In this document: piece after piece, positions 9,302-54,878 of the stretch
How the letters are laid out: every line of letters begins with the position of its first letter
Position numbering within the stretch: the stretch's first letter is position 1
IMG/VR virus record: IMGVR_UViG_3300017728_000002
Coordinates: 21,482 to 85,481 of that record
Strand: one strand, 5' to 3'
DNA: 64,000 bases
Source of the DNA: a virus
Position numbers and translations under genes: made by a program
Notes under the pieces: model-generated
Seen by the model: the letters and a program-made list of their open reading frames with translations, nothing else
Told to the model about the DNA's origin: nothing
Databases searched by the model: none

Positions 9302-9311
9302 AACTCTCTAC
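9302..9311 (+). promoter_or_regulatory. AACTCTCTAC start-proximal element
   Basis: A perfect copy of AACTCTCTAC, three bases before the ATG at 9315, in the 18-base gap after the connector gene. The same element precedes eight other genes on both strands. Confidence 0.6.
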
Positions 9312-9314
9312 ACC

Positions 9315-10109
9315 ATGGCTAACACCAAACGCACTGTGTTGATCTGTCCAACCGCAAAGCTGGATCAATGTGTCAACGTTAAAAACCAAGCAGCTCCCAT
9401 TACCCTCGAGGAAATGGGCGTACCTGCTGCAGAAATTACATCCGATGAAGTAAACACTACTTCATCGTATGCTTCAAATCAAGTTGATGATGAGTACAAT
9501 CTAGGTACTGCAGGCTACACAGATGTTGATTTTAGTGCTCTTGTAGCTAGTAATTTTACTGGCGACTTTGAGATCTTGATTATTGACATGACTGAAGGTC
9601 GTGAGGCATTTCCTCGCCGGACTTACACAGCTGCAACTTTGGCTGATCTTCAAACTGTTATCCAAAATTCTACCTTGGAAGCTGGAGATGGTAAGACGTA
9701 CACAGCAACGCTTGACAATTCAAACAACACGATTAGAGTAACATACCCCTTGGGTGTGATTGCTAAAGTCGCTGCAAGCGATGGTGCTGCTTTGACTGCA
9801 GCTGCAGCAACGCTGCCTGCAGGTTACACTACAGTGACTGCAATGGCATATTTGAAAGATGCCATTACCGATCAGTACGGACGTACTAACCGGATCAAGT
9901 TTCCTGTAATTGAGCCGGATGTAGCTGTAGCGTTGACTGAGGCAAACGCAGCTGCTTCAGGTGCTAGCACTTGGGATTTGCACGTTTTCACAAAAGTGAG
10001 TGAGGTCAAGTTTGACAAGAACACGGCTAACAGCTACCAAGACGTAGAGACGTTTGAAATCTTGGTTCCTGCTGGTCTTGCTCTTCCTTTCGGAAACGTG
10101 ACTGTATAA
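9315..10109 (+). CDS. Putative abundant virion protein (264 aa), isolated transcription unit
   Basis: The protein is Ala/Thr/Asp-rich without cysteine after its first 22 residues and looks like a beta-sandwich: TSSYASNQVDDEYNLGTAGY, NFTGDFEILIIDMTEGREAF, then FEILVPAGLALPFGNVTV at the C-terminus. No catalytic motif is visible. It is bracketed by an AACTCTCTAC element three bases before the ATG and a hairpin plus T-run after the stop, unlike most neighbours. This layout, shared with the capsid gene, suggests a separately and strongly expressed virion component such as a decoration or tail-tube protein; that is inference. Confidence 0.55.
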   Translation: MANTKRTVLICPTAKLDQCVNVKNQAAPITLEEMGVPAAEITSDEVNTTSSYASNQVDDEYNLGTAGYTDVDFSALVASNFTGDFEILIIDMTEGREAFPRRTYTAATLADLQTVIQNSTLEAGDGKTYTATLDNSNNTIRVTYPLGVIAKVAASDGAALTAAAATLPAGYTTVTAMAYLKDAITDQYGRTNRIKFPVIEPDVAVALTEANAAASGASTWDLHVFTKVSEVKFDKNTANSYQDVETFEILVPAGLALPFGNVTV

Positions 10110-10132
10110 ACCTTAAGGTTGTTTTCAATTGC

Positions 10133-10168
10133 AAAGGGGGTGGGGGAGACTCTGCCCCTTTTTATTTT
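10133..10168 (+). terminator. Rho-independent terminator
   Basis: AAAGGGG pairs with CCCCTTT around a G-rich 15-base loop and is followed directly by TTATTTT, a classical stem plus T-tract. It lies 24 bases after the stop of the 264-aa gene and just before the ATG at 10177. Confidence 0.7.
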
Positions 10169-10176
10169 AATCTACA

Positions 10177-10782
10177 ATGGGACAGACATACACTCGGTGG
10201 AGTAAAAACACCACTTCGATTACAGGGTCACTGCACATTCAGGCGCAAGACTCTTTTCAAGCACCCAACTTTGTATTCGTCTTTCCCAACGGGGATTACT
10301 TCTCACAAACCAGTGCGCAGGCTTCAAACGAAACATACATTTTAGCAGGCACTCAAGCGTTGTTTGTAGTGAATGCACCTCTGCTAGTACAGAATGATAC
10401 TTACCCTGCAGACAACGGAGAGTTCTTTAATGCTTTAGATGAAACCATTGCATTCACGCGTACAACCATTGAGCAGGGCGTGTACTACTTCTCAGCTACT
10501 CAAGGGTCTGACATAGAGCAGCAGTACGTAATCATGATGCCTGACATTGAAGAGGCTATGGTTACGCTTGCACAAAAGCTTTTGGATACCCAATGTGCAT
10601 GCCAAATGAACCGAAGTGTAATGGACAACTACATTAAGGCAAAAGCCATGCAGCAGTTGATCTATTCTAAAGTTGCCGATCAAGGGGTAACGTTGAGCAC
10701 TACGTTCTTAGCTGATGTGAATGCGGATGTAACTGTTTTGCATGACTTTATGCAAGGCACAAGCGAGATTTGCGGATGTTGA
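10177..10782 (+). CDS. Hypothetical protein in structural block (201 aa)
   Basis: The first half is beta-rich (TSITGSLHIQAQDSFQAPNF, QALFVVNAPLLVQNDTYPA), the second half helical, with Cys pairs at CACQMN and at the very end, CGC. I do not recognise a family. The start follows a terminator and a TAATCTACAATG context, which hints that transcription may restart here. The stop TGA overlaps the next ATG. Confidence 0.5.
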   Translation: MGQTYTRWSKNTTSITGSLHIQAQDSFQAPNFVFVFPNGDYFSQTSAQASNETYILAGTQALFVVNAPLLVQNDTYPADNGEFFNALDETIAFTRTTIEQGVYYFSATQGSDIEQQYVIMMPDIEEAMVTLAQKLLDTQCACQMNRSVMDNYIKAKAMQQLIYSKVADQGVTLSTTFLADVNADVTVLHDFMQGTSEICGC

Positions 10783-10964
10783 TGTATCCAGGCGCAGACC
10801 ATTACGCTGAAAGTCAAGTTGCTCAATCTGCACGAGCCGTAGTAAAACTTGATTTGCCGGAAAAGTCATTTATGATTGGCCTCTTGGCAGACATTGAACA
10901 GGCCCAGGGAAGCTTGTCGTTGAAGGTTAATGAGATCAATTCACAGGATATCTTAAACCCGTAA
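10782..10964 (+). CDS. Small hypothetical protein (60 aa)
   Basis: Start chosen at the ATG in the TGATG overlap with the preceding stop; an upstream in-frame ATG at 10776 is possible. The product starts MYPGADHYAESQVAQ and contains a probable amphipathic helix, LPEKSFMIGLLADIEQAQGS. No domain recognised. Confidence 0.45.
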   Translation: MYPGADHYAESQVAQSARAVVKLDLPEKSFMIGLLADIEQAQGSLSLKVNEINSQDILNP

Positions 10965-10985
10965 GGCTTTATACCTTATATTAAA

Positions 10986-11002
10986 GTGAGCTTAAAGCTC
11001 AC
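10986..11002 (+). promoter_or_regulatory. Inverted repeat abutting the phosphoesterase start codon
   Basis: GTGAGC-TTAAA-GCTCAC forms a 6-bp stem with a 5-base loop whose last base touches the ATG at 11003. Such a hairpin could modulate initiation or be an operator. It is short, so chance cannot be excluded. Confidence 0.35.
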
Positions 11003-18755: not shown

Positions 18756-19374
18756 CCAGATCGCATACAACATCGCAGGCGCTGCAGACAAGAACACAGA
18801 CACTGTGTTTATCAATCGCTTGAAGTTTCAAATTGAATACTTCCGGGCGTTGTTCTTGCGTCGGGATGCTCAGTCTAACATGAGCATTCCAGATGCTGTC
18901 ATTCAAACGCGCATCATCGATATGGAATGGGTTCCTGCAGTAGAAGCTTGTGGAGTAAGCCTCCCGTGTAAGATTCTTAAAAGCAAGGAAAAGCTGTGTG
19001 CTCCGATCAATCTAAAAGGGCAGACTGGGTTTGTCTATGTCGGAGCTGTAGGAGGCAGTTTAAGCTATCAATACGTTACTCCCGAACAGGTTGTGTATGC
19101 ATTGAGCTCTAAGTGGACTGCAGGTCAGCCTAAGTACTTCTTTAAGGACAGGTACCTCTACGTAACGGAAGGAGCTCCCATGTGCCTTGAAGTACGCATG
19201 GCGTGTGAATCTCCTGCCACCGGCGGCGAAGAAGGTGTCGATGGGTTAGGCTGTTTAGATCACGACGCTGAGTACCCAATCTCTATGGACATGGTTCAGC
19301 GGATTACAGAAGCCATCCTAGGACAACTTCAAGCAGACTCTCTACAAGACAATGGGCAAATTGAAATTGAATGA
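18742..19374 (+). CDS. Putative tail ring protein (210 aa)
   Basis: N-terminal helices (LNQIAYNIAGAADKNTD, NRLKFQIEYFRALFLRRDAQ) are followed by a Cys-containing strand-rich core (CGVSLPCKILKSKEKLCAPI) and a C-terminal helix AEYPISMDMVQRITEAILGQ. The layout resembles the stacked ring proteins below the portal in crAss-like phages. It sits just before another ring candidate and the 1,145-aa tail protein. Assignment is by layout and position; not certain. Confidence 0.5.
   Translation: MPTLNQIAYNIAGAADKNTDTVFINRLKFQIEYFRALFLRRDAQSNMSIPDAVIQTRIIDMEWVPAVEACGVSLPCKILKSKEKLCAPINLKGQTGFVYVGAVGGSLSYQYVTPEQVVYALSSKWTAGQPKYFFKDRYLYVTEGAPMCLEVRMACESPATGGEEGVDGLGCLDHDAEYPISMDMVQRITEAILGQLQADSLQDNGQIEIE
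19336..19345 (+). promoter_or_regulatory. ACTCTCTAC element inside the end of the ring gene
   Basis: GACTCTCTAC lies six bases before the ATG at 19352 but within the coding end of the 210-aa gene (coding for DSLQ). Its presence in coding sequence at exactly the start-proximal position argues that it is functional. Confidence 0.5.
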
Positions 19375-29707: not shown

Positions 29708-29717
29708 CACTCTCTAC
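29708..29717 (+). promoter_or_regulatory. CACTCTCTAC element, distal copy
   Basis: First of two copies in the 39-base gap before the giant gene, 28 bases from its ATG. Two bases after the stop of the 729-aa gene. Confidence 0.45.
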
Positions 29718-29726
29718 CACCGGTCA

Positions 29727-29745
29727 ATTCAGAAAAACTCTCTAC
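29727..29745 (+). promoter_or_regulatory. ATTCAGAAAAACTCTCTAC element abutting the giant gene start
   Basis: AACTCTCTAC directly touches the ATG at 29746. The preceding ATTCAGAAAA is identical to the sequence before the DUF3310 gene on the other strand (18 identical bases ATTCAGAAAAACTCTCTA), so the conserved block is longer than the core. Confidence 0.6.
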
Positions 29746-38700: not shown

Positions 38701-41700
38701 GATCTAGGCCATACCAATCCTACCACAGATGCGGACTTAAAAGGCATGCGTGTAGTAGGAAGTCAGCAAGAAGTTGAAGGTCCTTACACTTGGGACGACT
38801 CTATGGCTACAGATTTAATTGTGGGGATGAATAACCGAGAGTTTGTAGTTGTAAAACTTGGAGAATCCCCAAAAACAGGTCGAGAACTAAATGCTGATGA
38901 TTTTTTAAATGGACTTAAAGAAGGTTTTGAAGTCATAGACATGCATGGTAAAAAGCCTATGACCGTAGGCTTAGATTCAGCCATGGCTTCGTTAATGAAG
39001 CGAGATTTTGAAAAATGGTTAACTACTAAGAAAAATCTTAAAACACGTCCACAATCATTAGTTACTCCAGAATATATCAGTGACTATTCAGACCCAAAGC
39101 GAGAGCTGGCTCGCTACGTAAAAGAGCGTCAAACGAATAGAAAAGACTTTGAAGTTGATCCTGAACTAGAGTTGGCTTATGAATACTATCGATCTAAAGA
39201 GATTGATTCAGATAGGAATAACGAGGCTTTTACGTCTTCTTCTTCTTCTCTGCCTACAGGACCAGAAAAAGTTGTAATGGCCGAGGTCAAGATGAACAGA
39301 AAGTTCTTGCCTAAGCAATACAGGGAAATGAGCATTGAAGAGATTCGTGCCATTGACCCTACACTGCTTGAAGTCATGGTCTATCGTGTTCCTGCAGAAG
39401 GAAAGAATTCTATGGCCATGTGTAAGGTGGTGCAGTTCTTGCCTTCAGGTCAAGACGGCATGGTCATCCCCGCAGCTTTTGTAGCTCAAATGGGATCAGA
39501 CTTTGACATTGACAAGCTCTTTGTGAATTGGAAGAAGGTGCCTAGGGAAGGCAGAGAGCTCAATGCTTACGACCGAGCAGCCAATAAGTTTTTTGATTTA
39601 CAGAAGGATGTGCTGATGAATCCTGAAGTGGTAAAGACAGAAGTGCTTGTACCACAGGGCTTTGAAACCATTAAGGCGTTTCGTACGGAGATGGCTACTG
39701 CCCGCAGGAAAGGAGGGGTTTCAGACATTGATGTCTTTGCTCAAAGACGTCCGTATAGTGCTTTGACTCACTTGCAATTGTGGTCAGACAATGTAGCAGG
39801 CATTGGATTGAAAGGCATTGCTGCCAACAACAATACGTTTTGGATGAAAGTCCAACGTCACAACATGCAAGTGGAAGGAATTCCTATGAAGGATATGCCG
39901 CTTGAGTTGATGCAATGGAATGCAGAAGCAGTAGCTGCTTCTATGGACGGCGCAAAAGACCCTGTCTGGGGTACTATGGGCATTGACCGCAAGAACTTCT
40001 CGTTCTTCATGTACGAGTGTACCATGGGGTACATGCGGGCAATGAAAGAGAACCCAAGTGCAGACAAGGTTAAAACCTTGAATAAAGCTCGAAATGAAGC
40101 ATTAGCGGCAGCAACTGATTCAGATGTTATGCAAGCCATGACCACACGGGTTAATGACTTTAATGCAGAAACAGAAAAGACAGACAACGTAAAACGGTAT
40201 CAGGCTTATTTAAAGCAAGAGGCATACCGGGCGTTGAAAGACTTGACCCGTGTCAGTGAGATGAAAATCAATAAGGAGTTGATTGATCTTCTTGCAGCTA
40301 AAGAGCCCGTTCTAGATAATTATAACCTTACTCTAGACGCTGAAGGCAATATTATTTTAGACAGCGATGGTAACCCAGAGTTGCAAGCGGTAAAAGACGC
40401 CAAAGGAAACACTCTTCCAACCATGGGAAAGGCTTATGTCAATGCTCCTGTCATTAAAGGCGCTTTGGATATTGCCACTGCTTCAGAGTTGCTGATGAGT
40501 GGCGGTATGGGGATTCACTATTACCGCACTGTAGGTCGTTATAACGGCATCAGTTTCCCGCAATACTGCGCGGTTCAAACCTTTAAAGCAGCTGATGAAT
40601 TTGTAGAAGGCAAGCGCGCAGAGGTCATGGGTGAGAGAAGCGTCAGTGAGCGTTTTAGAGAAGTGGACCTAGAGGATGTTCAGTCTTGGAACATGCGTCA
40701 TTGGATCGTTTGGTTGAATACATCTGACGAAGGCCGAGCAATTCGAGACGACAAAGACAACGCGTTCTTGCGTAAGATGCTCTTGCATATCACGGTAGGC
40801 CGAGCCTACGAAGTAAACTACAATCGTTACGATCGGATAACGCCAATCCAGCTTAACGACCCTATCAAAGCAGAAGAGTTTCAAAAGGCTTGGGAAAACA
40901 CATTGACTCCGCCTTTATCCTATGAAGGGTCTGTTCACTACCCTTCTGAGTTTGCCAAAGCCTTAGTTCGCTACGAAGCTGCACGCAGTGGGTGGAGACG
41001 AGGGTCTTCAACCTTCACGCAGTTCTTGCCTACGGAGATTGTAAAAAATGTAAGCGGAGAGGACGCTACATCCTTGCAGATTGCAGCTCATGCTGTGTTG
41101 GATTCTAGGGTAGAGTCCGGTACAGAAAAAATGGCTTTGCTCAGCAACAGGCCTATGCGCTATGGTAAGCACACTTACGTGACTTTGCCTGGCGAAAACA
41201 GGCGGACAAAAGTGACCACTCCTGTTTTGATGCTTGGGTTCAGAGGCATGTCATCTATAGATGCTATTGCAGGTGAGTTGCAGGTCAACCAATCCACTGT
41301 AGAGGAAGAGATAGCTGAGTACAAAGCCAAGCAAAAGAAGAGTCAAAGCCTTGAAGCATTTGGAGATATTGCTTCATCTACTACTACTTCTGAGCGCATT
41401 GCTATGCTTCAGAGTCGGTTTGCTTCTTATGGTATTAAGGTAAGAGTGGAGTTTGATTCCACTTTAGAAGGTGCCGGTGATGTGCAGTACGATAAGGAGT
41501 CTGGGGTCATTCGACTCCACCCTGATCGCATGAAAAGCGATACGGTCTTGCACGAGTTTGGTCACATCTACATTGAGATGTTGGGGTTTGAAAACCCTGC
41601 TGTTCAGCAAGCCATTGAAGAGTTGCGCAACACTGAGCTGTATCGAGAGGTAGCAGAGATGTATCCACACTTAAGTCAAAGAGACTTAGATATGGAGGTT

Positions 41701-44700
41701 TTGGCTACAGCTATAGGTCTTGAAGGAGACGCCATCTATGACAAGGCTAAGAACCCCAACAAGCTTCGTACCCTGATCAATAAACTCTTTAGGGCTTTAG
41801 GTAAGTTGTTTGGTATCCAGCCTAACACCGCTCGGGAGTTGGCACGTAAGATGATTGAAGGGTCTGATGTTAGGACCAACAACTTAAAGTCATTCCGTGC
41901 AGAGCAACGATTGAAGAAAGGTTTGGATGCTCAGACCCTAATGATTGAGGTAGCTGATGAGATTATGAACCGCATCGATCATATGCGGCGATTGGGTGCC
42001 ACTACCGAGGAGCAGCAAGTGCTTCTAGACAGCTTGCAAGAGGACTCTAGTATGTTTAGAGAAGTAGCAGAAAGTGGAGCTACAGCTGTATTGGATTCTC
42101 TGGTGGTTGCAATGTCAGACTACTTGCAAAAAACTACTGAGTTTATCTCTCATGCGGAAACATATGTAGACACTTCTTCAGCAGCCGGGCTTAAAAAGCA
42201 AGACACTGAATTGTTGAACCAGGCGTATCAGCTGAGTCAAGTGCTGAATACGTTTTCTCAAACGTTTGCCAGCTTTGATAAAGACACTGTAGATGTAGAT
42301 TTTGATCAGCAAGAGCGGTTTGCAACAACCAACAAAGCTTTTGTGGAAATGGCAGGTCCTGTTCAGGTTATGCAAACCCGCTTGACCAGCTTGGTACGTA
42401 AGATGCTGAACAAAAAGCTGGTGGCTAATTCTAGTAACCCTAGGATCAAAGAAGCCATGGAAGCAGGGTTGGACATTTTCTCTTTGGCTCAAACTGAATT
42501 TGGCGACATCACTACCGATACTTCTAAAGGAGAAGTGCAGTTTATGGGATTGCTCGATCAAGACTCTAATGCTGTGCTTACTCTGTTTGGTAAGACTTTG
42601 CGTGATGTAGTCAACACCGAAGAGCTGCAGAGTAAGCAAGACATTCAAAAGCTTTACTCTATCCTAGATGACTTTGAAAGTCAGGGAGGATCTATCGAAT
42701 CTCTTTTAGATGAAGATGGTCAAAGCTTTGTGAGTCCTTATCGAGATGCATTTTATTCAGCTCAATCCAAAGCAACCAACCGTCGCAAGTGGAGAGCAAT
42801 GAACATGGAGCAGAAGTATGTAGAGTCTTACTACCTCGAGCATGTTTACTCTAAAGACCACAAAGACATCAAAGTACTCAAAGAAGAGATTGCTAGGTAT
42901 GAAGAGGGAGCCAGGGCAGGCACCCTTACAGAAGCAGATAAGCTTCATTTAGACCAGCTTCAAGAAGACCTGGCAACCAGAGAGCAATCTCTAGAGAGTT
43001 TTAAAAAATACCATGAACCTGTCTGGGACTTAGAGAAGTTTGAAAAGGACAAAGCAGATGCTGAATCGCAAGGGCCAGATGTAGCAGCAGCTTGGAAAGC
43101 AGCGTATGTGCACTCCAGCGGCAAGCCTAAGTTCAACAGTCCTTACTACAAGACTTCTAAGGTGAAAGACAAGTTCTTGAATCCTAAATGGACAGGGACA
43201 GACATGCCTAAAGCCAAATGGTTAAACCCGAAAGCAAAGGAGTTATCTCCTCTGCAGCAAGAGACCATTGAAGCTTTGAAAAATCTGATGAAAAATGCTG
43301 TAGGGTTTGAAGATCACCGGATGTTCAACGAGAGTTTGATTCCTCAGATTGAAAACCCAGAATCTAAAAGCCTAACAGAAGTATTGCGTGACATGCCACG
43401 TGAAGCCCTAGAGACAAACAAAGACACGGCTCGCATGGGCACAGATAGTGAAGGGCGGAAGATCTTCTTGCGTGGAGGGTTGAAGCACAGCAGGCGAAGT
43501 GATGGGTTAGTTTCTACAGACTTAAGAAAAACCATCGCTCAGTTTGTTGTAGAGGCTAGGGCTGCTAAAGCTGCCAATAACATTGAGACGTTCTCTTTGA
43601 TGACTCGCGATGAGCTTGGTCGTATGGAGCTAACTGCTCGAAAAGGTTGGAGTATGGGTAGGGTAGATGGTAAGCGCTTGAACTTAAACGACAACAAACG
43701 CGCTGGAACCATCAAAGGAGACCGGAGTAACTCTATGGATGTAATAGAGCATGTCTTAGAAGGTTACTTAGGGCAAGGGTGGCAAACTACAGGTAAGTAT
43801 GACTCTCAAGCCGCTCTTCTGCAGAGCTATATTTCGTTCCAAGGTATTGGCTTTAACCCTTCGGCATGGGTCAACAACATCATGTATGGTGAGCTTATGC
43901 AAATCTTGGATGCCGTTGGAGGAGATATGTATACAAGTGAGAGCTTGAACTTGGCTAAGAAACAGGTATACGCAGGCATTAGAGACCTGGCGTTAGCTCG
44001 CGACAAAGGCACCAAGCCAAAAACAAGGTTGGCTGCGGTCATGCACTTCTTTGATGCAACCATGGATCAAAGGGAATTGCCTGAGACCAGCGAGTTGCTA
44101 GACAAGTTCTATAACCTGGCATACATCGGTCAAAGCTTTGGTGAGCTGTTGATGCAAAGTCAAGTTGTCCTTGCTATGATGTATGATACAAAAGTGAAGC
44201 TGGACACTGGAGAGACTGTTAACCTCTATGAAGCCTTGACTTGGGACGGAGAAGCCCGAGGTATTGGGTTTAAGGCAGGTAAAGTCATTCGCAAAGACGG
44301 CACTCTGGTTGATTTAGACATAAACTACCTCGGCTCCTTTAAGACCAAAGCTGTAAATGTGCTGCAACGCATTCATGGATCTTATAACGCAGAAGATATG
44401 GGTCGGTTCCATCGCATTGCTGTAGGTAGGCTCGTGCTTCAATTCCGTAAATGGATGCCTCAAGCTTTGAAAAAGCGTTTTGGAGCTGATCGGTTTAGTG
44501 AAGTACGTGAAACTGAGGAGATAGGATATTACCGTGCGCTTTGGGACAAGATTATTGTTCCTGGGGTGATGGGCAACGTAGACGACGCAAAGCGGTTTAG
44601 GTTCTATGCTACCTATCAAAGCCAACCACCGCATGTCCAGAAGGCCATCAAACGAGCTGCCATTGAGATGGGGCTGGGAGTGTCAAGTGCAATCCTTAGT

Positions 44701-45093
44701 TACGTTCTTGCGTCATTGATTGAAGTAGATTCAGATGAAGAAGACGAGTTCTTCCTGTTGAATGACGCGTACTACAAAGCCAAGCTCTTGTACCACACAG
44801 AACGCTTAAACCAAGAGCTTGTGGCATATACTCCTTGGGGTATGTACGATACGGCTTTGAGGATTGGTCAAGACCCTGCAGCTGCTTCTAGACAGCTTAA
44901 GACGATGTTCAAGTTTATGCAACAAGCCGTCTATGGATTGGCTCCTGGCGTAGAGTTGGAGCGCTTTAAAGGCGGACGCAATTATGGTGATCTGAAGATC
45001 AGTACGTATGCTTTACAGCTATTGCCGCTTCTTAAGCAAGCTCTTCGTGAGATGAATACCATCTCAAGCCATACGATCTATAAGTTGAGTTAA
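29746..45093 (+). CDS. Giant virion RNA polymerase polyprotein with two zincin motifs (5,115 aa)
   Basis: One uninterrupted 15.3-kb frame. Around 3150-3350 is a double-psi beta-barrel polymerase region: AEVKMNRKFLPKQY, then YRVPAEGKNSMAMCKVVQFL, and the metal-binding loop GSD3252-F-D3254-I-D3256-KLF. That DxDxD loop is the hallmark of the QDE-1/crAss-like single-chain RNA polymerases that are packaged, ejected and transcribe early genes. Two zinc metallopeptidase motifs flank it: H1805-EAL-H1809 with E1841/E1842 downstream, and H3936-EFG-H3940 with E3984 downstream. A SAP/HeH-like helix-extension-helix lies at ~937-972, preceded by acidic low-complexity linkers (~760-800, ~905-935). The N-terminal 450 residues contain Gly/Ala/Lys-rich hydrophobic segments; the C-terminus has a membrane-like segment (AAIEMGLGVSSAILSYVLA). 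Known crAss-like polymerases are often ~2,000 aa, so this looks like a fusion of several cargo proteins. It may be cleaved; unproven. Confidence 0.85.
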   Translation: MSENNTTPDSSFESRQEDAGLTPKSNIRFGLKQDPLYQEQGMFQSRMTENPQVKGIDVQKYAPYTGYITHLGTRDAMRARGQSVAEKWGNGIYQAVVGEVVGGSLQGLGALGMLVDSEKNFLYELGEAINEGARDATPIYKHSDKAFAFNDAGWWASNLGNILSTVSMLVPGMAVSKGASLAARGLVAAGKAGKAVKAGKTIGKAGKVAGKAAGEAADVTADAMKASVRAQRLEKTMQTVAGGYGMRHAENIREGVDVAVQAEEEFMQDGRALEDFKGTVAYDQYLKDHDQKAPMNKQELASYVGGQAAVRSYQFNMLNLVFDVFQMGTIFKPFKAVTRGQGVGKVGAAAAGKAAAGLDKGTRATRALEKSKGFLTEVGKAATEGIEESINFMGSGEGMARAEYLRGVETGSFGERLDDYFHDSHLYESAFWGFLGGGVFQGLGSIMGKKQDAAMTSLLRQQETLVRESAELAKAEKSGDTEKANQIRARVMADLGIRASQSGRVDQLLDQLNSDDFMKQLQEQGLLGEKSIEEARNELIEGVLKQEKDYKKIAEVAEEYGLSSQEMFVLLKQQNSYDAGLKSIAEKLEAIDDASITEDQKLAAKFQLRDSLVELQKKVKKEKGKDSKTPFGAELKALQEELKDKEKPAEFEKLLTYEAFNQARLLAEQTRLKRKRAELTTEQSLAYTRTTVNAYNKNQEKVIAASFKKRVAEEENLDILNKLLEQAKRNKAKDQEILISERIAELKKTNADKTDADKAQEENEEGGTPVPKDDSTEENEPPTENEPSKENEPPEENDPDVSDVLPEGVVLEDDDEVDYTLAYREPYADGSPFDFGSLTNQERRFLDALDNLDTAETVEKAQALVSFVRNYILKQQEEGKPIKRKFDGKVVDQAIAYLAEAEKTPPAAPQDSAPQDSAPQDPTSDPPTDLPTDDLENSTVKALKAIARQEGLTGYSKLNKAELVAAIRAHREQATLFPENKVTPPTDESPAEKKRRESQQNRVEKHSKELYEALESYAEAVANRDALQDSKNADSKEAVAAELAADKAAMKVLNALNNLTSHSLLSQQNKVESYISSDLREYMELATETLEQDGYTSDHVKPGQVYDETLSVDVEIVNDETLEPGVELIQKINQPEIRKKGKVIQRGQVVVVQGPLLSKPVIEPETVEAPEGQIKMIMNDLMEAFLQQMQIRTSVTMPTTRVREHALIEGTRLTLEGPVAEQYEALMFALTNPSASVTIRISDNQVEVKNPIYKTSVNNKLGVKSLTRKTVGSKTYTYENEEDNSPDYEVVVEYQGKTVVIGNVPRVGTLLKQASRLQNQYRNQPTGDDADANPYWRNAYADANLNALQAIRHADAIALFRKYLDSQDSGSISFTGLSEQIALDGSFKRGSLLRPSDQMDTLNMHPEVTDAIDEHGLCVMMTDPSSGEPYLLNLKTGLKTAVPYQDGVMAMNAQAGTYAFKNQSNKISSTGAVFIPIRDPNSPLKPMWVRMPDMTLKEANRTDFVSNILYGPGTSEQKFELLRSVMSTPPPSVTSESQIMEGFTGAAFISGPSNGQPRLVILKDRKIVMDFNPDGTPRTEIQKAVLEQLKFRLDAKSPELASYEKEGKRDEETRQTLKSLAQSIKQNGRMPIAPVVKKDSAGNDVIIGYHHPVPAARFERDREAQSQNQLFNPEAQSTMLPIAIDMARLQAQNPEAPASPDTKPTDTSDPKKSNEKGGESTDFWNESDDGAMFMTVEKALASDFYAMSTSKDQLEAELWLAKNLPHVPFRRVKGLIERGGVTAYGIWEQGMIRVSDISVVGTEYHEALHAVMDTYLSPKRRAKIMAEARAKYGDLGPIKLEEKIAEAFREYMLTEGKSMTEKSALRRFFSEILALVQAMFQGQYRTRQLMQNINRGRYAYKPSQRSKNFLTKFSKVPAFDAAEMSELEQVMPFLVNYILKDIREAFVGNNPKDVLMRRYGREEDAQVLEGLLQTIAEIKDLSVESDEDGNTIEIQREKKKLIAEGIIRVIFDSRGLFQYMIKSSSRASEERKLEIYDRLGHNEEVLVEHFSTNPRVQRMIMQAIAIDASTGTTDIEQNFSASIAEINPMDKVPASIKNLISRTIYIPGDRSGRLIETILGNQGTEAALEAIAEVSGTDVDKSDAFSRFGLPRFLQFETVYPFLLNQLSSLPSYEAMETRMLELSVYNPSLASIVLALRKDAEPGTLTELQKQFYVGMKRASSEELNVSLETQYDERVERKFQVPVVKDEFIYEPAWHLVQRNKEAVYNAILQFTPAEKEKVLNALSALAKQRNETPEVRVKTIKILVRTFQKLEFSTMDPSALANAMHVMSNNELGGLADMLERLILAGNEAQTSAILREVVRIMKLADADMGAVQSSYMSNLKTKYAHVNPSYLTEELDRLKSAFKEEYLKERFAHNAHLEESMWHIMLDEESLTYRRFGQLGPHAYTDMDVAQRLEYDLLALFRMGKNAQGRQIRVTGYSAIPTPSDATGSFMVSNDFVHYPENVKNRILASIYDAETRKDVTHMSLPIDRSKVDINSIESKAEYMRALLEQEAAALLSIPEFKEVIDKLQVPLGYGPVEGRSRDEGRVTMVNSYVAATYVSNWNVSNWMGGTIDHFGGDVTKYQKRFKQIMSPGQTSADKGTFRNVTIEDPVVFEDWATEVEYSDNGKPVKNADGTYRRIPSAIDRADAQSYVTLDFWERMLSSHGELTDYKKAVIEKARKGEALSVSERSVFAPYKPFYFGWVQGQPHQLKNSVIPLLPPVKGQAPISVELEAMRKWMVHPDNKVDQITLKSAHKVGVTSKATSMFQDGKFKAPEPGYTQYDLPMEFHRNQVSITEHNNHNGTVGLGTQTGPIIMSNLRNYEGLGEVHIQKLLKTEQRMMNMKLKELKGKLFVQGTELGKNGEEDVSKRTVPDVARVRQYVLDNVRDDVHPAVLEILSSPLASAGRISPLVAFAVNQTLAAAVQKDFKKQKVTGGMQVQISDLGHTNPTTDADLKGMRVVGSQQEVEGPYTWDDSMATDLIVGMNNREFVVVKLGESPKTGRELNADDFLNGLKEGFEVIDMHGKKPMTVGLDSAMASLMKRDFEKWLTTKKNLKTRPQSLVTPEYISDYSDPKRELARYVKERQTNRKDFEVDPELELAYEYYRSKEIDSDRNNEAFTSSSSSLPTGPEKVVMAEVKMNRKFLPKQYREMSIEEIRAIDPTLLEVMVYRVPAEGKNSMAMCKVVQFLPSGQDGMVIPAAFVAQMGSDFDIDKLFVNWKKVPREGRELNAYDRAANKFFDLQKDVLMNPEVVKTEVLVPQGFETIKAFRTEMATARRKGGVSDIDVFAQRRPYSALTHLQLWSDNVAGIGLKGIAANNNTFWMKVQRHNMQVEGIPMKDMPLELMQWNAEAVAASMDGAKDPVWGTMGIDRKNFSFFMYECTMGYMRAMKENPSADKVKTLNKARNEALAAATDSDVMQAMTTRVNDFNAETEKTDNVKRYQAYLKQEAYRALKDLTRVSEMKINKELIDLLAAKEPVLDNYNLTLDAEGNIILDSDGNPELQAVKDAKGNTLPTMGKAYVNAPVIKGALDIATASELLMSGGMGIHYYRTVGRYNGISFPQYCAVQTFKAADEFVEGKRAEVMGERSVSERFREVDLEDVQSWNMRHWIVWLNTSDEGRAIRDDKDNAFLRKMLLHITVGRAYEVNYNRYDRITPIQLNDPIKAEEFQKAWENTLTPPLSYEGSVHYPSEFAKALVRYEAARSGWRRGSSTFTQFLPTEIVKNVSGEDATSLQIAAHAVLDSRVESGTEKMALLSNRPMRYGKHTYVTLPGENRRTKVTTPVLMLGFRGMSSIDAIAGELQVNQSTVEEEIAEYKAKQKKSQSLEAFGDIASSTTTSERIAMLQSRFASYGIKVRVEFDSTLEGAGDVQYDKESGVIRLHPDRMKSDTVLHEFGHIYIEMLGFENPAVQQAIEELRNTELYREVAEMYPHLSQRDLDMEVLATAIGLEGDAIYDKAKNPNKLRTLINKLFRALGKLFGIQPNTARELARKMIEGSDVRTNNLKSFRAEQRLKKGLDAQTLMIEVADEIMNRIDHMRRLGATTEEQQVLLDSLQEDSSMFREVAESGATAVLDSLVVAMSDYLQKTTEFISHAETYVDTSSAAGLKKQDTELLNQAYQLSQVLNTFSQTFASFDKDTVDVDFDQQERFATTNKAFVEMAGPVQVMQTRLTSLVRKMLNKKLVANSSNPRIKEAMEAGLDIFSLAQTEFGDITTDTSKGEVQFMGLLDQDSNAVLTLFGKTLRDVVNTEELQSKQDIQKLYSILDDFESQGGSIESLLDEDGQSFVSPYRDAFYSAQSKATNRRKWRAMNMEQKYVESYYLEHVYSKDHKDIKVLKEEIARYEEGARAGTLTEADKLHLDQLQEDLATREQSLESFKKYHEPVWDLEKFEKDKADAESQGPDVAAAWKAAYVHSSGKPKFNSPYYKTSKVKDKFLNPKWTGTDMPKAKWLNPKAKELSPLQQETIEALKNLMKNAVGFEDHRMFNESLIPQIENPESKSLTEVLRDMPREALETNKDTARMGTDSEGRKIFLRGGLKHSRRSDGLVSTDLRKTIAQFVVEARAAKAANNIETFSLMTRDELGRMELTARKGWSMGRVDGKRLNLNDNKRAGTIKGDRSNSMDVIEHVLEGYLGQGWQTTGKYDSQAALLQSYISFQGIGFNPSAWVNNIMYGELMQILDAVGGDMYTSESLNLAKKQVYAGIRDLALARDKGTKPKTRLAAVMHFFDATMDQRELPETSELLDKFYNLAYIGQSFGELLMQSQVVLAMMYDTKVKLDTGETVNLYEALTWDGEARGIGFKAGKVIRKDGTLVDLDINYLGSFKTKAVNVLQRIHGSYNAEDMGRFHRIAVGRLVLQFRKWMPQALKKRFGADRFSEVRETEEIGYYRALWDKIIVPGVMGNVDDAKRFRFYATYQSQPPHVQKAIKRAAIEMGLGVSSAILSYVLASLIEVDSDEEDEFFLLNDAYYKAKLLYHTERLNQELVAYTPWGMYDTALRIGQDPAAASRQLKTMFKFMQQAVYGLAPGVELERFKGGRNYGDLKISTYALQLLPLLKQALREMNTISSHTIYKLS
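32074..32138 (+). repeat. ENEPP-type acidic repeats in the giant protein
   Basis: The coding sequence repeats a 15-18-base unit encoding E-ENEPP-TENEP-SKENEPP-EEN. It forms a disordered acidic linker between helical and downstream domains. Confidence 0.7.
32467..32511 (+). repeat. Three tandem 15-bp units GCACCACAAGATTCT
   Basis: Three 15-base units (last with one C for T change) encode APQDS-APQDS-APQDP immediately before the SAP/HeH-like segment of the giant protein. Likely slippage in a flexible linker. Confidence 0.85.
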
Positions 45094-45590
45094 CCTATAG
45101 AGCGTGTGTCTAGAATGACAGGAGCTGATTGTTTAAGGACTTTCTCAATGTCGTAGACTTTAAAGTCCATCTTAAACGGGGTGTCTAAAAGAAAGTCGCT
45201 CATGTATGATATGAATTCCTTTCTGCTGGGAGCAATGTAAGTGCAGGTAAAGTTGACAGACGTACTGAGCTCTGGCGTCTGTCGCTTAAGTTTCATGATC
45301 TCAATGCACCAGTTTTGTCCTATAAGCTTGTCTTGTAGGGTGCTGGCTTCAACATCGTTTACGATGATTTCTACTTTACAACTAAACTCGAAACCAAAAA
45401 ATTTGTGGTTGATGTGACATTGGGGAGTACTGATGGCTCCTTTTTCAAACAGTGCGCGGACCCTCATTAAAGTAGGACCTGGACTAAGACCTACAGATTT
45501 AGCAAGGTCTTGGTTTGAAATGCTGGCGTCTTTCTGTAACACGTTGATTAGTTCAATGTCAGTGGAATCGATGTTTTTCTTCCTAGGCAT
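45090..45590 (-). CDS. Lrp/AsnC-type transcriptional regulator (166 aa)
   Basis: The N-terminal segment NIDSTDIELINVLQKDASIS-NQDLAKSVGLSPGPTLMRVRAL-FEKGAI is the winged helix-turn-helix of the Lrp/AsnC family (residues ~4-55), including the typical 'D-ILL-QDA-S--LA--VGLS---v--Rv--L---G-I' spacing. The C-terminal part (~60-166) lacks an obvious ligand-binding RAM motif and may differ from it. Start taken at the ATG at 45590; an upstream TTG is less likely. The stop codon shares TTAA with the giant gene on the opposite strand. It may switch between the two blocks, which is inference from its location. Confidence 0.7.
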   Translation of the reverse strand: MPRKKNIDSTDIELINVLQKDASISNQDLAKSVGLSPGPTLMRVRALFEKGAISTPQCHINHKFFGFEFSCKVEIIVNDVEASTLQDKLIGQNWCIEIMKLKRQTPELSTSVNFTCTYIAPSRKEFISYMSDFLLDTPFKMDFKVYDIEKVLKQSAPVILDTRSIG

Positions 45591-45692: not shown

Positions 45693-45917
45693 TTATTTTG
45701 TTTCCACGTATTTGATAAGCAAATTCAGGTAATGTTGGGCCTTGTGTAAGTCTTCTACACCTCCTTTGGCTTTGTACCTCGACACGTACTTAATGATGTT
45801 CCCTTCTATGAATCCCATGCCATTGGCGAGGATGTACTCTATCGGAGGAATCTTAAGGTCGTAATGGTTCCCTCCAACTTGAGTGGTTTGCTCTAACTTT
45901 GGGACGTGCTTAGGCAT
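45693..45917 (-). CDS. DUF3310-type small protein (74 aa)
   Basis: The pattern VGGNHYDLKIPPIEYILANG, then GNIIKYVSRYKAKGGVEDLH-KAQHYLNLLI, is the DUF3310 family (annotated 'nucleotide kinase' in T7-like and other phages on weak grounds). No kinase P-loop is visible, so I treat the function as unknown. It is preceded by a hairpin and the CTCTCTA element, indicating its own expression signal. Confidence 0.8.
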   Translation of the reverse strand: MPKHVPKLEQTTQVGGNHYDLKIPPIEYILANGMGFIEGNIIKYVSRYKAKGGVEDLHKAQHYLNLLIKYVETK

Positions 45918-45938
45918 GTAGAGAAATTTTAGAGAGTT
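45918..45938 (-). promoter_or_regulatory. AACTCTCTA element before DUF3310 gene
   Basis: On the minus strand the order is ATTCAGAAAAACTCTCTA, AAATTT, CTCTAC, ATG. A full core sits 11 bases from the start and a partial second copy (CTCTAC) touches the start codon at 45917. The block before the core is shared with the giant gene's upstream region. Confidence 0.6.
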
Positions 45939-45947: not shown

Positions 45948-45973
45948 AGGGGAGGAAGTAGAGAGCCTCCCCT
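45948..45973 (-). terminator. 8-bp GC-rich hairpin between two minus-strand genes
   Basis: AGGGGAGG pairs with CCTCCCCT with a 10-base loop, three bases after the stop of the 169-aa gene. No T-run follows on the minus strand, so termination may be weak; it may also be a processing hairpin. Confidence 0.55.
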
Positions 45974-48154: not shown

Positions 48155-48164
48155 GTAGAGAGTG
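48155..48164 (-). promoter_or_regulatory. CACTCTCTAC element before the DnaA-like gene
   Basis: Minus-strand CACTCTCTAC, four bases before the ATG at 48150. It lies between the hairpin at 48169 and the start, the same order as at 45917 and 53410, and settles the start choice. Confidence 0.6.
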
Positions 48165-48168
48165 AAAT

Positions 48169-48192
48169 GGGAGCAGGATTTCTCCTGCCCCC
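48169..48192 (-). terminator. 10-bp hairpin with GAAA tetraloop after rIIB
   Basis: On the minus strand GGGGGCAGGA-GAAA-TCCTGCTCCC pairs over 10 bp with one G-U wobble and a GNRA tetraloop. It starts 15 bases after the rIIB stop. The wobble pairs only in the minus-strand RNA, so it is a minus-strand structure. Confidence 0.65.
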
Positions 48193-48206
48193 CATTCATG
48201 TTTCAA

Positions 48207-49352: not shown

Positions 49353-49355
49353 TTG

Positions 49356-51539
49356 TTATAGAGAGTTTATAGCTTGACGGTAGAGATCGTCACTAGTATG
49401 TTGATGTAGGATACTATTCAGTATCACGGTTCCTGCTGGCGTCTTCTGAAGTTGTTTCTGGATGTTTCTAAATTGAGCAGCTACCTTGTTAGGCGTGTAT
49501 ACTGCTCCGTTGTGCTGTAATATACTGAATGATTCTACAGATGGGGCTTCTATGTCAAATATTTCGCTGTTTATGACACTGTAAATCCAACCATTAGACT
49601 TTTTAGGTCTAGGAGGTAGTGTAAGGTGTTCTTTCAAGCACCCAAGTCGCATCAAAGTAAATCCTTGTAAGCAGTAGCTATGAATATGTTCTTTAAACCA
49701 CTGCCACTGGCTGTGTTCTAGGTTTTTAGCTTGCTGTCGTAAGATGATTTGCTTCAACTTGGCTAGATCCCAGCACTCTACACCGGACTTTTGAAGTCGC
49801 TTAAAGTTGCCGTCACTAGCGCAGTACAAGTCTTTAGGCAACACAACATTCCACTCAATAGCCTTGGCATACTTGTATTGAATGACAATTGCTTTGGTGT
49901 CTTTAAGCTCCTTGTAAGTCTTTGTTGTGCGGGTGTATGCATTATTCTGTACCACCTTTACAGGCAGTTCCGTTTTCAGCATCTCCGCAGTCCAATTAGA
50001 GCCAGTCTTACGACGAAGCTTAAGGTTTTCCTTACGGTCTACAAGCCATTTCTCTGTAGGTGTGTAATCTGCATATTTCTCTGTGTGTTTTTGAAAGAAC
50101 TCGTTGAGTATCACAGTAATGATCTGTTCAATCTTATTGTGTATCTCTTCTTTACGGTTTTCATCTACATTGTTTAAACCATACCTGCATACCTCTTGAA
50201 TAATGGGCATGAAGTTTTGGTTTACGTTAAAAATCAAAGCATAGGTGGTGGTTAGGTTGTTGTTCTCTTGAAAGAATTCTTTCCAAACCGTACCCAGTCT
50301 TTGATCTCCACGCTTTCTAATCATCGTGTAAGTAGCGGACGTGTTCGGTACTCCCTTGACAATGTCACGACCACTTAGTGTAGATACAGATCGCCACTTA
50401 CCTATTTGCAAGTCTAGTTTAGCACTAGGCTCTAAAAGTTGACCAACGATGCTCGTAAACCGGTCTTCTTGAACTTCTTTAGGCCAACCTTCAACGCTTG
50501 AGGTAAGGTGAAAATGGCGAGTACTTGCAATAATTTGATGAGTATCCGGATACACCAACTCGTTTTTACGAGAGCCATACCCATAAAGCAATTTGAGGTC
50601 TGTAGAATATCCTGATTGGGCTTGTTGCCATGTTTCAAACACAGAATTTACTTGACTCAACTTTTGATCAAGCAGTTCTTTGGCGTTGTCGTTTAACTCC
50701 AAACCTTCTCTAGACAAGGTTGGGTTGATCTCGCCAATGTTCAGCTTAATCACAAAGTTGGTCAGATAACTGTCTCCATCCAGGTGCGGAATTTTGTACA
50801 AAACATTGCCTAACGAAACCATTAGCCCGTTATGGCAAAGGGTTCTGTCGTTCTGCTCAATCCTTAAGAAAGACCCGTAATCAAAGACTTTGCTTTCATT
50901 GAATATGAATTCGCCAGGAAGAGAGATGCTCAGCATATGACCAAGAAGCACCAACTGGTTCTCTATGGCCATTACAAATTGAGTTGTATCAGCACGAGAA
51001 TACACGGGGATCGTGATTAACGTACCGTTGCTTTCATCGGTTTCAATCTCATTGATCATAGTGCATGTGCGCTCTGCACTGCTCTTTTCCATGAGATAAC
51101 TCCGCTTGACTCCGTCTATATAAGTTGTGACTTGAAAGACAGGAGTGTAAGCAAAGGGACTCTTTGCACCGATACCGAATCCACCAATCTGTTCGTTAGA
51201 ATCACGTTTGGTAGAGGCAAAGTATTGCGTGAAGATGTTCTCAATGCGGTTAGGAGTAATGCCAGGACCGAAGTCTCGCACACTAAACTCGCCTACAGCG
51301 TTACTCAAGCTTGGCACATTGGTCAGCTTTACTTGAACTTTCTGAGTGGAACGGGCTTCTTGGTTAGCGTCGACAGCATTGGACACGACCTCTCGGACGA
51401 TAGACCCATACTTGTCTTGGTATACTGAGTTAGACATTAACTCAGCGAGGTGTGTTGCGGCATCTGCTGCAAACCCCATTTTAATCTTTTGCCCCGACAC
51501 AGTAGACTCGTACTGTCGTTGGGCTGTATTCATTTTCAT
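49356..51539 (-). CDS. rIIA: RIIA-like GHKL ATPase (727 aa)
   Basis: The GHKL (HSP90/histidine kinase/MutL-type) ATP-binding motifs are intact: N-box E50-VVS-N54-AV-D57-A, G1 box D89-F-G91-P-G93-I and the lid GGFGIGAKSPFAY (119-131). The protein begins MGFAADAATHLAELMSNSVY before the N-box, as in T4 RIIA and similar phage proteins. The rest (~200-727) is charged, with no clear domain. It neighbours the RIIB-like gene as in T4. Role: inferred membrane-linked protection or lysis timing, unproven here. Confidence 0.8.
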   Translation of the reverse strand: MKMNTAQRQYESTVSGQKIKMGFAADAATHLAELMSNSVYQDKYGSIVREVVSNAVDANQEARSTQKVQVKLTNVPSLSNAVGEFSVRDFGPGITPNRIENIFTQYFASTKRDSNEQIGGFGIGAKSPFAYTPVFQVTTYIDGVKRSYLMEKSSAERTCTMINEIETDESNGTLITIPVYSRADTTQFVMAIENQLVLLGHMLSISLPGEFIFNESKVFDYGSFLRIEQNDRTLCHNGLMVSLGNVLYKIPHLDGDSYLTNFVIKLNIGEINPTLSREGLELNDNAKELLDQKLSQVNSVFETWQQAQSGYSTDLKLLYGYGSRKNELVYPDTHQIIASTRHFHLTSSVEGWPKEVQEDRFTSIVGQLLEPSAKLDLQIGKWRSVSTLSGRDIVKGVPNTSATYTMIRKRGDQRLGTVWKEFFQENNNLTTTYALIFNVNQNFMPIIQEVCRYGLNNVDENRKEEIHNKIEQIITVILNEFFQKHTEKYADYTPTEKWLVDRKENLKLRRKTGSNWTAEMLKTELPVKVVQNNAYTRTTKTYKELKDTKAIVIQYKYAKAIEWNVVLPKDLYCASDGNFKRLQKSGVECWDLAKLKQIILRQQAKNLEHSQWQWFKEHIHSYCLQGFTLMRLGCLKEHLTLPPRPKKSNGWIYSVINSEIFDIEAPSVESFSILQHNGAVYTPNKVAAQFRNIQKQLQKTPAGTVILNSILHQHTSDDLYRQAINSL
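49358..49367 (-). promoter_or_regulatory. AACTCTCTAT element in the end of rIIA before rIIB
   Basis: AACTCTCTAT overlaps the last codons of rIIA (NSL-stop) and lies five bases before the rIIB ATG. The core is in coding sequence at the start-proximal position. Confidence 0.55.
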
Positions 51540-51904
51540 AGAGAGTAATTCAATTGTGGATCTGGTATATCCGTATTCATGTATTCAGCAGCCCATTGTC
51601 GGATGCTGTCGATATAGGTTTTAAAACGATTCTTGGTCATTTCAGTCGTGCTCATGATTCTCATGCCAAGCACAATTCCGTCATCTTGTATTAGGTCGCC
51701 TAAAGCAAAATTTGCTTTGAGCCAGTTGTGTGTGTCAGTGTATGTAAGAGGTGCAGGAACAGCACCTTCAATAATTGTAGAGCGATCCCACCCGTGGTCA
51801 GTTAACGTTGAGCAAACGATCGGGACTACGATTTTCCAGTAGTACCGGTTCTGTGCTGAAGTGCGCTTTGTATCCGGGGTGGTCTCTAAGGAGTTGTCGG
51901 TCAT
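51536..51904 (-). CDS. NinB-like recombination protein (122 aa)
   Basis: The segment KRTSAQNRYYWKIVVPIVCS resembles the start of the phage NinB/recombination-accessory family, whose members have R--QN--YW. Start chosen at 51904 (MTDNSLETTPDTKRTS); a longer frame to 52000 is possible but would overlap the RusA gene even more. Even so, 107 bases overlap the end of the RusA-like gene in another frame. The stop overlaps the rIIA start. NinB-type proteins bind single-stranded DNA and aid recombination; the match is moderate. Confidence 0.55.
   Translation of the reverse strand: MTDNSLETTPDTKRTSAQNRYYWKIVVPIVCSTLTDHGWDRSTIIEGAVPAPLTYTDTHNWLKANFALGDLIQDDGIVLGMRIMSTTEMTKNRFKTYIDSIRQWAAEYMNTDIPDPQLNYSL
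51539..51548 (-). promoter_or_regulatory. TTACTCTCTA element overlapping the rIIA start
   Basis: Minus-strand TTACTCTCT runs into the A of the rIIA ATG and coincides with the end of the NinB-like gene (NYSL-stop). The core is shorter at its 3' side than other copies because it touches the start codon. Confidence 0.5.
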
Positions 51905-53410: not shown

Positions 53411-53440
53411 GTAGAGAGTTGTAGAGAGTTGTAGAGAGAG
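53411..53440 (-). promoter_or_regulatory. Tandem AACTCTCTAC repeats before the primase gene
   Basis: Two perfect 10-base AACTCTCTAC units plus a third CTCTCTCTAC unit run directly into the primase ATG. Triple presence makes this the densest site of the element. Confidence 0.7.
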
Positions 53441-53449
53441 AGTAGGTAA

Positions 53450-53474
53450 GAGGGGGGCCTTTGCCGCCCCCCTC
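53450..53474 (-). terminator. 9-bp GC-rich hairpin after the SSB-like gene
   Basis: GAGGGGGGC pairs with GCCCCCCTC around a 7-base loop. It is perfectly paired on either strand and separates the SSB-like gene from the primase gene. No T-run on the minus side. Confidence 0.65.
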
Positions 53475-53529
53475 CGTCCTAAGGTTTCACGTAATGCGAA
53501 ACTCCCATCACACTATTCGGTGTAACGAG

Positions 53530-54186
53530 TCAAAATTCCAATCCTGAATCTTCTGCAGCTACTGGTGGTGTCAACACTGGTGCTGGGTCTGCATCAAAAG
53601 GAGCAGGTTCACCTCCCAACATGGCGTTTAGATCATCACTGTTGGCCGAAGCTTTAGGAGTAATCCGTTCATACTTTTGGTGGTATACAAACGTATCGTT
53701 GTCACTCATAAGCAGAATGAAATCATTCAACGCGCGTCGAGGGAATACAGTAAAGTCCTTCTGGTTCAAGATTAGCTTGAGCCTAACTGGAACATCTACC
53801 CATCGATCGTTCAAGTTGTCAATGACTGCTTGAGAGAATTCTTGATAGTTGGCTCCTTTAACAGTGATGTCACTCAAAGGCATGTAGCAACTCATGATGT
53901 GCTTAATCCTTTCGGTTGTGTCACGCATCATCTCCTCTAGAAGGTCCTTGTAGTCTTTGCCCCATGCGTGAGCATTGGATTTGACTTTTTCAGGAATGAT
54001 CTCCCATTCATTATGAGTAAAGATTTGACCTTTATCATTGGTGAACTCAAACTTCAGCACTTTGTCTCCTGTGCCGTTTGCTTTAAAGGGTTCATATGCA
54101 ATGCGCTTTAAGACGCAGTTGTTGTTTGTGCCAGCAGGCATTGGATTGAAGCCACGCTTCAAAGGGGTACTGTCAATTGTAAACAT
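53530..54186 (-). CDS. SSB-like single-stranded DNA-binding protein candidate (218 aa)
   Basis: N-terminal residues 1-60 (LKRIAYEPFKANGTGDKVLK, FEFTNDKGQIFTHNEWEIIP) form strand-like sequence compatible with an OB-type fold. The C-terminus (~180-218) is flexible, acidic and Pro-rich and ends EDSGLEF, like the acidic hydrophobic tip that SSB proteins use to recruit partners. It is next to the Sak4-like, DnaB-like and primase genes, as phage SSB genes often are. Assignment rests on the tip and context; it might instead be another recombination mediator. Confidence 0.6.
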   Translation of the reverse strand: MFTIDSTPLKRGFNPMPAGTNNNCVLKRIAYEPFKANGTGDKVLKFEFTNDKGQIFTHNEWEIIPEKVKSNAHAWGKDYKDLLEEMMRDTTERIKHIMSCYMPLSDITVKGANYQEFSQAVIDNLNDRWVDVPVRLKLILNQKDFTVFPRRALNDFILLMSDNDTFVYHQKYERITPKASANSDDLNAMLGGEPAPFDADPAPVLTPPVAAEDSGLEF

Positions 54187-54188
54187 GT

Positions 54189-54860
54189 TTAGTCGATGTA
54201 GATATTAGACCATTGGAATGAAAGGGCTTGGTCAGCCAGATGAGGGCAACGACTGCCCGCTTGGGTATTGTCACTACCCGTTTTGAACGTGATCATGAGT
54301 TCATCAGATTCGCGGTAAACGAATCCAATGGCATCTGCAGCACTCATAAGCTCATTCTTAAGCTTACCGGTAAGGTTTAGCTCGTTGATGTCGATCACTT
54401 TGTTGTGATCTTCGTCCACTACAGTACTTCGCTTGGTGTGTCCAACGATGATGATACCCTTAGTGGCAAGGGCTGCCAGCTTTTGCACGGCGTTAACTAC
54501 TGCTTCACGAACTAAGGCAAAACCTTTGCCAAATTCCATGTCGCCAATAGTGGCTACTTCATGCTGCTTGCAGACGTATCGTTCTATCCAGGCAGCCAAA
54601 TTGTCTACCGTGTCTAAAGCGATGTAATCATACTTGGTGTCGGACTGACTTAAACTTTGATTTAGGAGTTTGTACTCGTTAAGATTGTCGACATACACTT
54701 TCATGGCGTCAACATATTCAGTACCTCGTTCTGTGTCAATGATTAAGCAGTTGTCCAGCTTAGCGATCGTCGATGTTTTACCGGCTTTTGGGGAGCCATA
54801 GAGAAGTAAAAATCGAGGGTCTTTTCTTGTAGCAGTTGTTTTGCTAGTGGGTAAATCCAT
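54189..54860 (-). CDS. Sak4-like RecA-fold ATPase (223 aa)
   Basis: P-loop G22-SPKAGKT29 preceded by RFLLLYG and a Walker-B-like aspartate in KYDYIALDTVD (~residues 75-84) define a RecA-type AAA core. The short length (223 aa), the aspartate-rich CLIIDTERGTEYVDAM and the lack of extra domains resemble the Sak4 phage recombinases, which anneal or pair single-stranded DNA with SSB. It lies beside the SSB-like gene and follows a CTCTCTA element. It could alternatively be a helicase-loading ATPase. Confidence 0.7.
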   Translation of the reverse strand: MDLPTSKTTATRKDPRFLLLYGSPKAGKTSTIAKLDNCLIIDTERGTEYVDAMKVYVDNLNEYKLLNQSLSQSDTKYDYIALDTVDNLAAWIERYVCKQHEVATIGDMEFGKGFALVREAVVNAVQKLAALATKGIIIVGHTKRSTVVDEDHNKVIDINELNLTGKLKNELMSAADAIGFVYRESDELMITFKTGSDNTQAGSRCPHLADQALSFQWSNIYID

Positions 54861-54868
54861 TTTAAATT

Positions 54869-54878
54869 TTAGAGAGTT
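54869..54878 (-). promoter_or_regulatory. AACTCTCTAA element before the Sak4-like gene
   Basis: Minus-strand AACTCTCTAA, overlapping the stop of the DnaB-like gene, eight bases before the ATG at 54860. Confidence 0.55.

Follow-up and report, generated by a model that had tools for sequence, protein, structure and literature searches.

The element and the genes that carry it

The 64,000-base window analysed here covers positions 21482–85481 of the 85,481-base virus record IMGVR_UViG_3300017728_000002 (phage G000). A short pyrimidine-rich element, with the conserved core ACTCTCTA, recurs in it just before start codons on both strands. With its terminal repeat of 123 bases the record looks complete. 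The major capsid protein it encodes has matches to the crAss-like head family and to 105 crAss-like records at 31–34% identity, and its source looks to be a complete crAss-like phage.

The initial annotation of the window had named nine starts preceded by a recurrent 10-base element, and all nine bear it at the places given there. What their near copies have in common is the core, as the full 10-mer AACTCTCTAC occurs exactly at just four window places, ahead of three starts. The copies at the nine starts are as follows (nt, nucleotides; aa, amino acids; ORF, open reading frame; HTH, helix-turn-helix).

9302..9311 (+): AACTCTCTAC, 3 nt before the ATG at 9315 (264 aa, structural-gene block)
19336..19345 (+): GACTCTCTAC, within the end of the upstream ORF, before the ATG at 19352 (153 aa)
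29708..29717 (+): CACTCTCTAC, the first of two copies before the ATG at 29746
29736..29745 (+): AACTCTCTAC, abutting the ATG at 29746 of a 5115-aa ORF
45918..45927 (-): ATTTCTCTAC, a degenerate copy abutting the ATG at 45917
45929..45938 (-): AACTCTCTAA, before the ATG at 45917 (DUF3310)
45958..45967 (-): GGCTCTCTAC, a third, outlying copy before the ATG at 45917, within a stem-loop of the gap
48155..48164 (-): CACTCTCTAC, before the ATG at 48150 (DnaA C-terminal HTH protein), just 3' of a G+C-rich hairpin
49358..49367 (-): AACTCTCTAT, before the ATG at 49352 (rIIB-like), within the final codons of the rIIA-like gene
51538..51547 (-): TACTCTCTAT, overlapping the ATG at 51539 (rIIA-like), the last A of the core being the A of ATG
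53411..53440 (-): three head-to-tail 10-base units, two of them exact, abutting the ATG at 53410 (primase), after a G+C-rich hairpin
54869..54878 (-): AACTCTCTAA, before the ATG at 54860 (AAA_24, Sak4-like)

The tagged genes of this phage are of mixed classes, comprising the primase, the Sak4-like ATPase, the rIIA- and rIIB-like genes, the DnaA-type HTH and DUF3310 genes, a kinase, a gene of the structural block and the 5115-aa ORF. The last of these (29746..45093, +) contains, near residue 3252, the SDFDIDK catalytic pattern known from the crAss-like virion RNA polymerase; it is a putative RNA polymerase by this motif and by crAss-like synteny, with no profile match.

Enrichment and placement at start codons

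In the window the exact core has 14 occurrences, whereas shuffled sequence gives 2.4 ± 1.5 (the maximum of 100 shuffles being 7); in the whole record it has 24, and permuting its letters yields 3.2 on average. Enrichment at starts over the whole genome had been proposed as a check, and 11 called starts carry ACTCTCTA between positions -30 and -1, compared with a permutation mean of 0.11 (rank 1 of 560). Correction of two starts gave 13 tagged starts, with a log10 p of -21.7 against a null minimum of -7.4, and the number of tagged genes is 14 once copies extending into the ATG are counted. ACTCTCTA marks approximately 18% of genes. The start-codon element is genuine, and stronger than first described.

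The enrichment requires the exact core. When two mismatches were allowed, the total count was 63 versus 64.6 in shuffles, so that the comparison with shuffled sequence upheld the exact core and gave no excess for its looser form. At untagged starts the fit to the element is no better than the fit to its reversed form, which leaves approximately 14 sharp sites plus two or three weaker ones, and the tagged genes in this phage number about 14 to 16. The weak form AATCTA, listed in the initial annotation before three further genes, was seen three times in the -30 to -1 windows against 0.34 expected, which is no more than a hint. Information is limited to about 8–10 bases, the flanks of the copies being unrelated, and a search for a second conserved block at a fixed spacing from ACTCTCTA found none.

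The distance that separates the core's end from the ATG is -1 to 19 nt for the nearest copies and is not fixed; the near-start placement reported earlier is borne out, with this range in place of 0–18 bases. By their centres, 15 of the 24 copies fall between -30 and -1, two lie inside coding starts (+12 and +18) and two lie further upstream (-33 and -62). All of the start-linked copies (19/24) are in the sense orientation, and 17 were observed between -32 and +20 where a circular-shift null gave 0.58. None of the antisense copies comes closer than 62 nt to a start. The remaining 5/24 copies, four antisense and one intergenic, are near chance level. Scattered copies away from starts had been noted previously, and these proved to be few, near chance and antisense (18460, 23330 and 42992 in the window), the copy reported near 56010 being a one-mismatch form at 56018. 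One of the two downstream copies depends on a putative start of the amidase gene.

Several copies lie inside the coding ends of upstream genes, and tandem copies precede several genes. An upstream gap of at least 15 nt was found for 9/14 tagged genes versus 30/66 others, and the tagged genes showed no significant tendency to lead transcription units (p 0.28 in this gap test); the genes at the head of each block are without the element. Copies follow each of three G+C-rich hairpins in the 45–54 kb block by a few tens of bases, while terminator-like hairpin gaps overall showed no significant enrichment for the element. The hairpin before the primase gene (53441–53480, -) recurs in orthologous gaps of distant relatives with different letters.

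Other phages carry different start tags

Relatives with 83–86% protein identity keep the core at five orthologous starts (one of them degenerate) with varying copy number, and at one orthologous start the flanks diverge while the core persists. In the relative L132 (86% in the Sak4-like gene), two tandem core copies precede the Sak4 ortholog and three copies lie at the primase ortholog start; the element at its rIIA ortholog start is identical to that of G000, and a degenerate form, TTCTCTA, holds the corresponding place before its rIIB ortholog. In L169 (83%), the core is kept at the start orthologous to the gene at 9315. A search of related phages had been suggested in the initial annotation, and the result divides by distance, as ACTCTCTA is absent at the starts of relatives at or below 77% identity, exact matches to the tag being at or near chance in relatives of this distance identified by their major capsid protein. 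These relatives show other sequence at the orthologous places, for example AATACCTATA or AACTTTAACTC, and in sister phages at 77% identity no replacement motif of similar strength was found. Viral contigs were scanned for tandem copies ahead of an ATG; of the 17 loci returned, only L132 was real and the others were chance matches; no further related loci were found via rIIA or a 729-aa protein.

Long relatives were surveyed for start-proximal words with a composition-aware null. Cellulophaga phage phi14:2 carries the tag AAAACTAA, the word TAAAACTA being present at 10 starts, one tandem duplicate included. A crAss-like prophage of Zeaxanthinibacter sp. PT1 has the start tag ATCACCAC (log10 p -12.5), which sits 1–3 nt from the ATG, the gaps that hold it being mostly 16–17 bases long, and supplies the A at -3 and the run at -14 to -9 that are favoured by Flavobacterium ribosomes. 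In a marine clade (G033, G034 and G030), CCCTTAAT at starts is weak to borderline. The short contigs G027 and G057 gave single weak flags at three starts each, for which no tag is claimed, and about 25 other relatives surveyed showed no start-proximal word. A family-wide consensus of the form 'AAC + pyrimidines + TAA', suggested by orthologous starts, was not upheld beyond the CCCTTAAT clade, many relatives having no k-mer above the composition-aware null. That other crAss-like phages have different letters in the same place suggests either a reader encoded by the phage or an element specific to the lineage.

The PT1 prophage (G045:C1:907589-998656, NZ_JAQPCN010000001.1, L242-L248) is approximately 91 kb long and syntenic with G000. 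It is apparently integrated, and its flanks are formed by a perfect repeat, 50 bases long, that matches a tRNA-Met gene at the 3' end.

Host signals and a second repeated word

At 213 starts of the flavobacterial host Zeaxanthinibacter, which carries this related prophage, none of the phage words was enriched, whereas the Bacteroidota sigma promoter TAHHTTTG was (within 100 nt of 35 starts, versus 4 for its reverse). The tag thus belongs to phage lineages and not to the host, and the element is not a host-wide translation signal. The initial annotation had offered a promoter or a translation signal suited to Bacteroidota ribosomes. A promoter and a translation signal are still the main candidates, while the suggested fit to Bacteroidota ribosomes is unsupported: the element is absent at the 213 host starts and in relatives at or below 77% identity, it brings no A at -3 or -6, and other phages use other letters. 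The earlier statement that it is not a Shine-Dalgarno site stands. A Shine-Dalgarno site is purine-rich and pairs with CCUCC of 16S rRNA at a set spacing, whereas CTCTCTA is pyrimidine-rich and lies at -1 to 19 nt; this variable spacing, with overlap of the ATG in one case, argues against any such site with a set geometry.

In G000 the host promoter TAHHTTTG lies within 100 nt of only 1/79 starts, and it occurs five times in the window against 27.8 ± 4.7 expected. The host -7 motif TA..TTTG is depleted at its exact spacing in the whole record (18, versus 43, 65 and 98 at spacings 1, 3 and 4). As TA..TTTC is also low (24), part of this depletion may reflect a wider bias. The depletion is mild in G042, and there is none in phi14:2 or crAss002.

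A second repeated word, TAAAAAGA or (G)TCTAAAAAGAAGACT, is found mostly 50–65 nt upstream of early minus-strand genes (L006:9200-13400 and window position 57661, -), with 10 copies of TAAAAAGA versus two of its reverse. This word is a better candidate for an early promoter than ACTCTCTA. Two of the genes that have it also bear near-matches of the element at their ATG (9205 and 13318).

A start-region element that may act on mRNA

ACTCTCTA looks like a phage-specific gene-expression signal. Our preferred reading, to which we give a probability of roughly 0.42, is that it belongs to the start region, acts mostly on mRNA and has a putative phage-encoded factor as its reader. The element would be a lineage-specific component of the translation-initiation region, at or around the AUG of approximately 14 to 16 genes; the reader would be an RNA-binding regulator or a ribosome-associated protein encoded by the phage, and the element would favour or gate initiation on the tagged messages during infection. 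We prefer the message level because the tag clusters around the AUG, overlapping it and lying on both sides of it, because it is all-or-none, and because the prophage tag sits 1–3 nt from the ATG with A at -3. The lack of a second box, the mixed gene classes and the separate candidate promoter TAAAAAGA also count for this reading. Action on RNA, a phage-encoded reader and either direction of effect, activation or repression, are what we infer from this pattern.

Several results weigh against action on the message. No phage RNA-binding reader turned up with the profiles tried: RegA (PF01818) had no match in the record, which may encode unrelated RNA-binding proteins, and bS21 (PF01165) had none in G000 or 11 related records, while the host chromosome does match. 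Variable spacing is unusual for a signal read by the ribosome. The element is no more accessible in RNA than permuted letters at the same place (unpaired 0.72 vs 0.71), and two copies lie inside coding starts, which may be chance. The start context of Flavobacterium is Kozak-like, with A at -3, -6, -12 and -13 (PMC6847099). This context occupies the same window as ACTCTCTA, and relatives of the phage and the prophage show its A-rich pattern; unlike it, ACTCTCTA is a fixed word at a variable distance, and the tagged genes have A at -3 and at -6 at frequencies of 0.29 and 0.29, equal to the other genes, with A at -12/-13 raised (0.57 vs about 0.30). In F. johnsoniae, pyrimidines at -14 to -11 reduce translation (PMC6847099).

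Among known systems, ACTCTCTA resembles T4 RegA-type operators in having AUG-region sites in a set of unlinked genes without Shine-Dalgarno geometry. T4 RegA-type operators overlap the AUG region of unlinked genes in this manner; here, by contrast, no RegA homolog was found, and structural genes and the putative RNA polymerase ORF are among those tagged.

Alternatively, the element could be a compact promoter of a phage-controlled RNA polymerase, with transcription starting inside or just upstream of ACTCTCTA to give mRNA that is leaderless or has a leader of at most about 20–30 nt. We regard this as a close rival, almost as likely as action on mRNA. Phage RNA polymerases as a rule use short motifs that differ between phages, and a change of letters with lineage is what a polymerase and its promoters would show. 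In phiKZ the late promoter consists only of T-3 A T G+1 and overlaps the site where transcription begins (PMC7598289); like it, the AR9 and P23-45 motifs are very short and phage-specific (PMC7598289, PMC5312081, PMC10770324). These promoters were defined by mapped start sites, ACTCTCTA by its sequence pattern, and no transcription start-site map of a crAss-like phage was found among the papers searched. The leaders of AR9 are 26–491 nt long (PMC5312081), unlike the 0–20 nt that ACTCTCTA would give. The genome itself offers further support, as it encodes the crAss-type RNA polymerase ORF (by motif and synteny), the host TA..TTTG is avoided and almost never lies upstream of starts, copies trail the three hairpins of the 45–54 kb block, and tandem 10-base units fit one turn of DNA. 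Against a promoter, the copies at -1 and 0 and the two beyond the ATG would require transcription to begin upstream of the element; the tagged genes do not preferentially head transcription units, block-leading genes lack the element, hairpin gaps overall are not enriched for it, and the 77% sister phages have no replacement of like strength. A T7-type promoter is GACTCACTATAG. ACTCTCTA matches the T7-type ACTCACTA at 7/8 bases; unlike in the T7 promoter, copies 0–1 nt from the ATG leave no space for a start site 4–5 nt downstream. The T7-like polymerase profile (PF00940) had no match in the record, but neither did its positive control, and sigma70 region 2 was not found. Tagged tRNA genes, which would have pointed to a promoter, were sought in the record, which is without any tRNA.

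Two further explanations seem unlikely. The tandem copies at a helical period, together with phage-encoded HTH genes that have diverged orthologs, could indicate a DNA operator at which a phage regulator blocks or aids transcription, for example the AsnC-type HTH protein (45090–45590) or the DnaA-type HTH protein (47491–48150). Operators cluster at promoters and not at AUGs within operons or in upstream coding ends, and a strict sense orientation would be unusual for them, so we consider this improbable. The AsnC-type gene (45090..45590, -) lies at a convergent junction and has a syntenic ortholog in the Zeaxanthinibacter prophage (28% identity); its product is, speculatively, a candidate DNA-binding partner of the element. 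Less probable still is a homogenised intergenic spacer that recombination would have carried from one gene junction to another and that would itself have little function. Lineage-specific letters, the difference in copy number between G000 and L132, the fixed 16–17 base spacers of the prophage and the restriction of strong motifs to a minority of relatives would all suit such a spacer. However, just 8–10 bases are common to the copies, whose flanks are unrelated, several copies lie within upstream coding ends, and the core survives at orthologous starts of the 83–86% relatives, at one of which the flanks diverge.

A broader and rather doubtful reading is that Crassvirales lineages each have their own start tag (ACTCTCTA, AAAACTAA, ATCACCAC or CCCTTAAT), read by a fast-evolving phage factor that would select the messages to be initiated, as a phage-private code laid over non-Shine-Dalgarno hosts. 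crAss-like phages are among the most abundant viruses of Bacteroidota, and little is known of their gene expression after the virion RNA polymerase has acted. Their hosts start translation without Shine-Dalgarno pairing, and a sharp lineage tag at replication, rII-like and polymerase genes represents a concrete handle on this process. Its counterparts in the cultured phage phi14:2 and in the prophage of a cultured host make it open to experiment.

Other features of the record

A tyrosine integrase (PF00589, E 6e-14) is encoded outside the window, at L006:15717-16790 (+), and suggests that the phage may be temperate. Within the window, the 1837-aa product of 57699–63212 (-) has a dockerin-like repeat (E 1e-6), which is unusual in a phage, and its neighbour at 63248–63904 (-) has a weak dockerin match.

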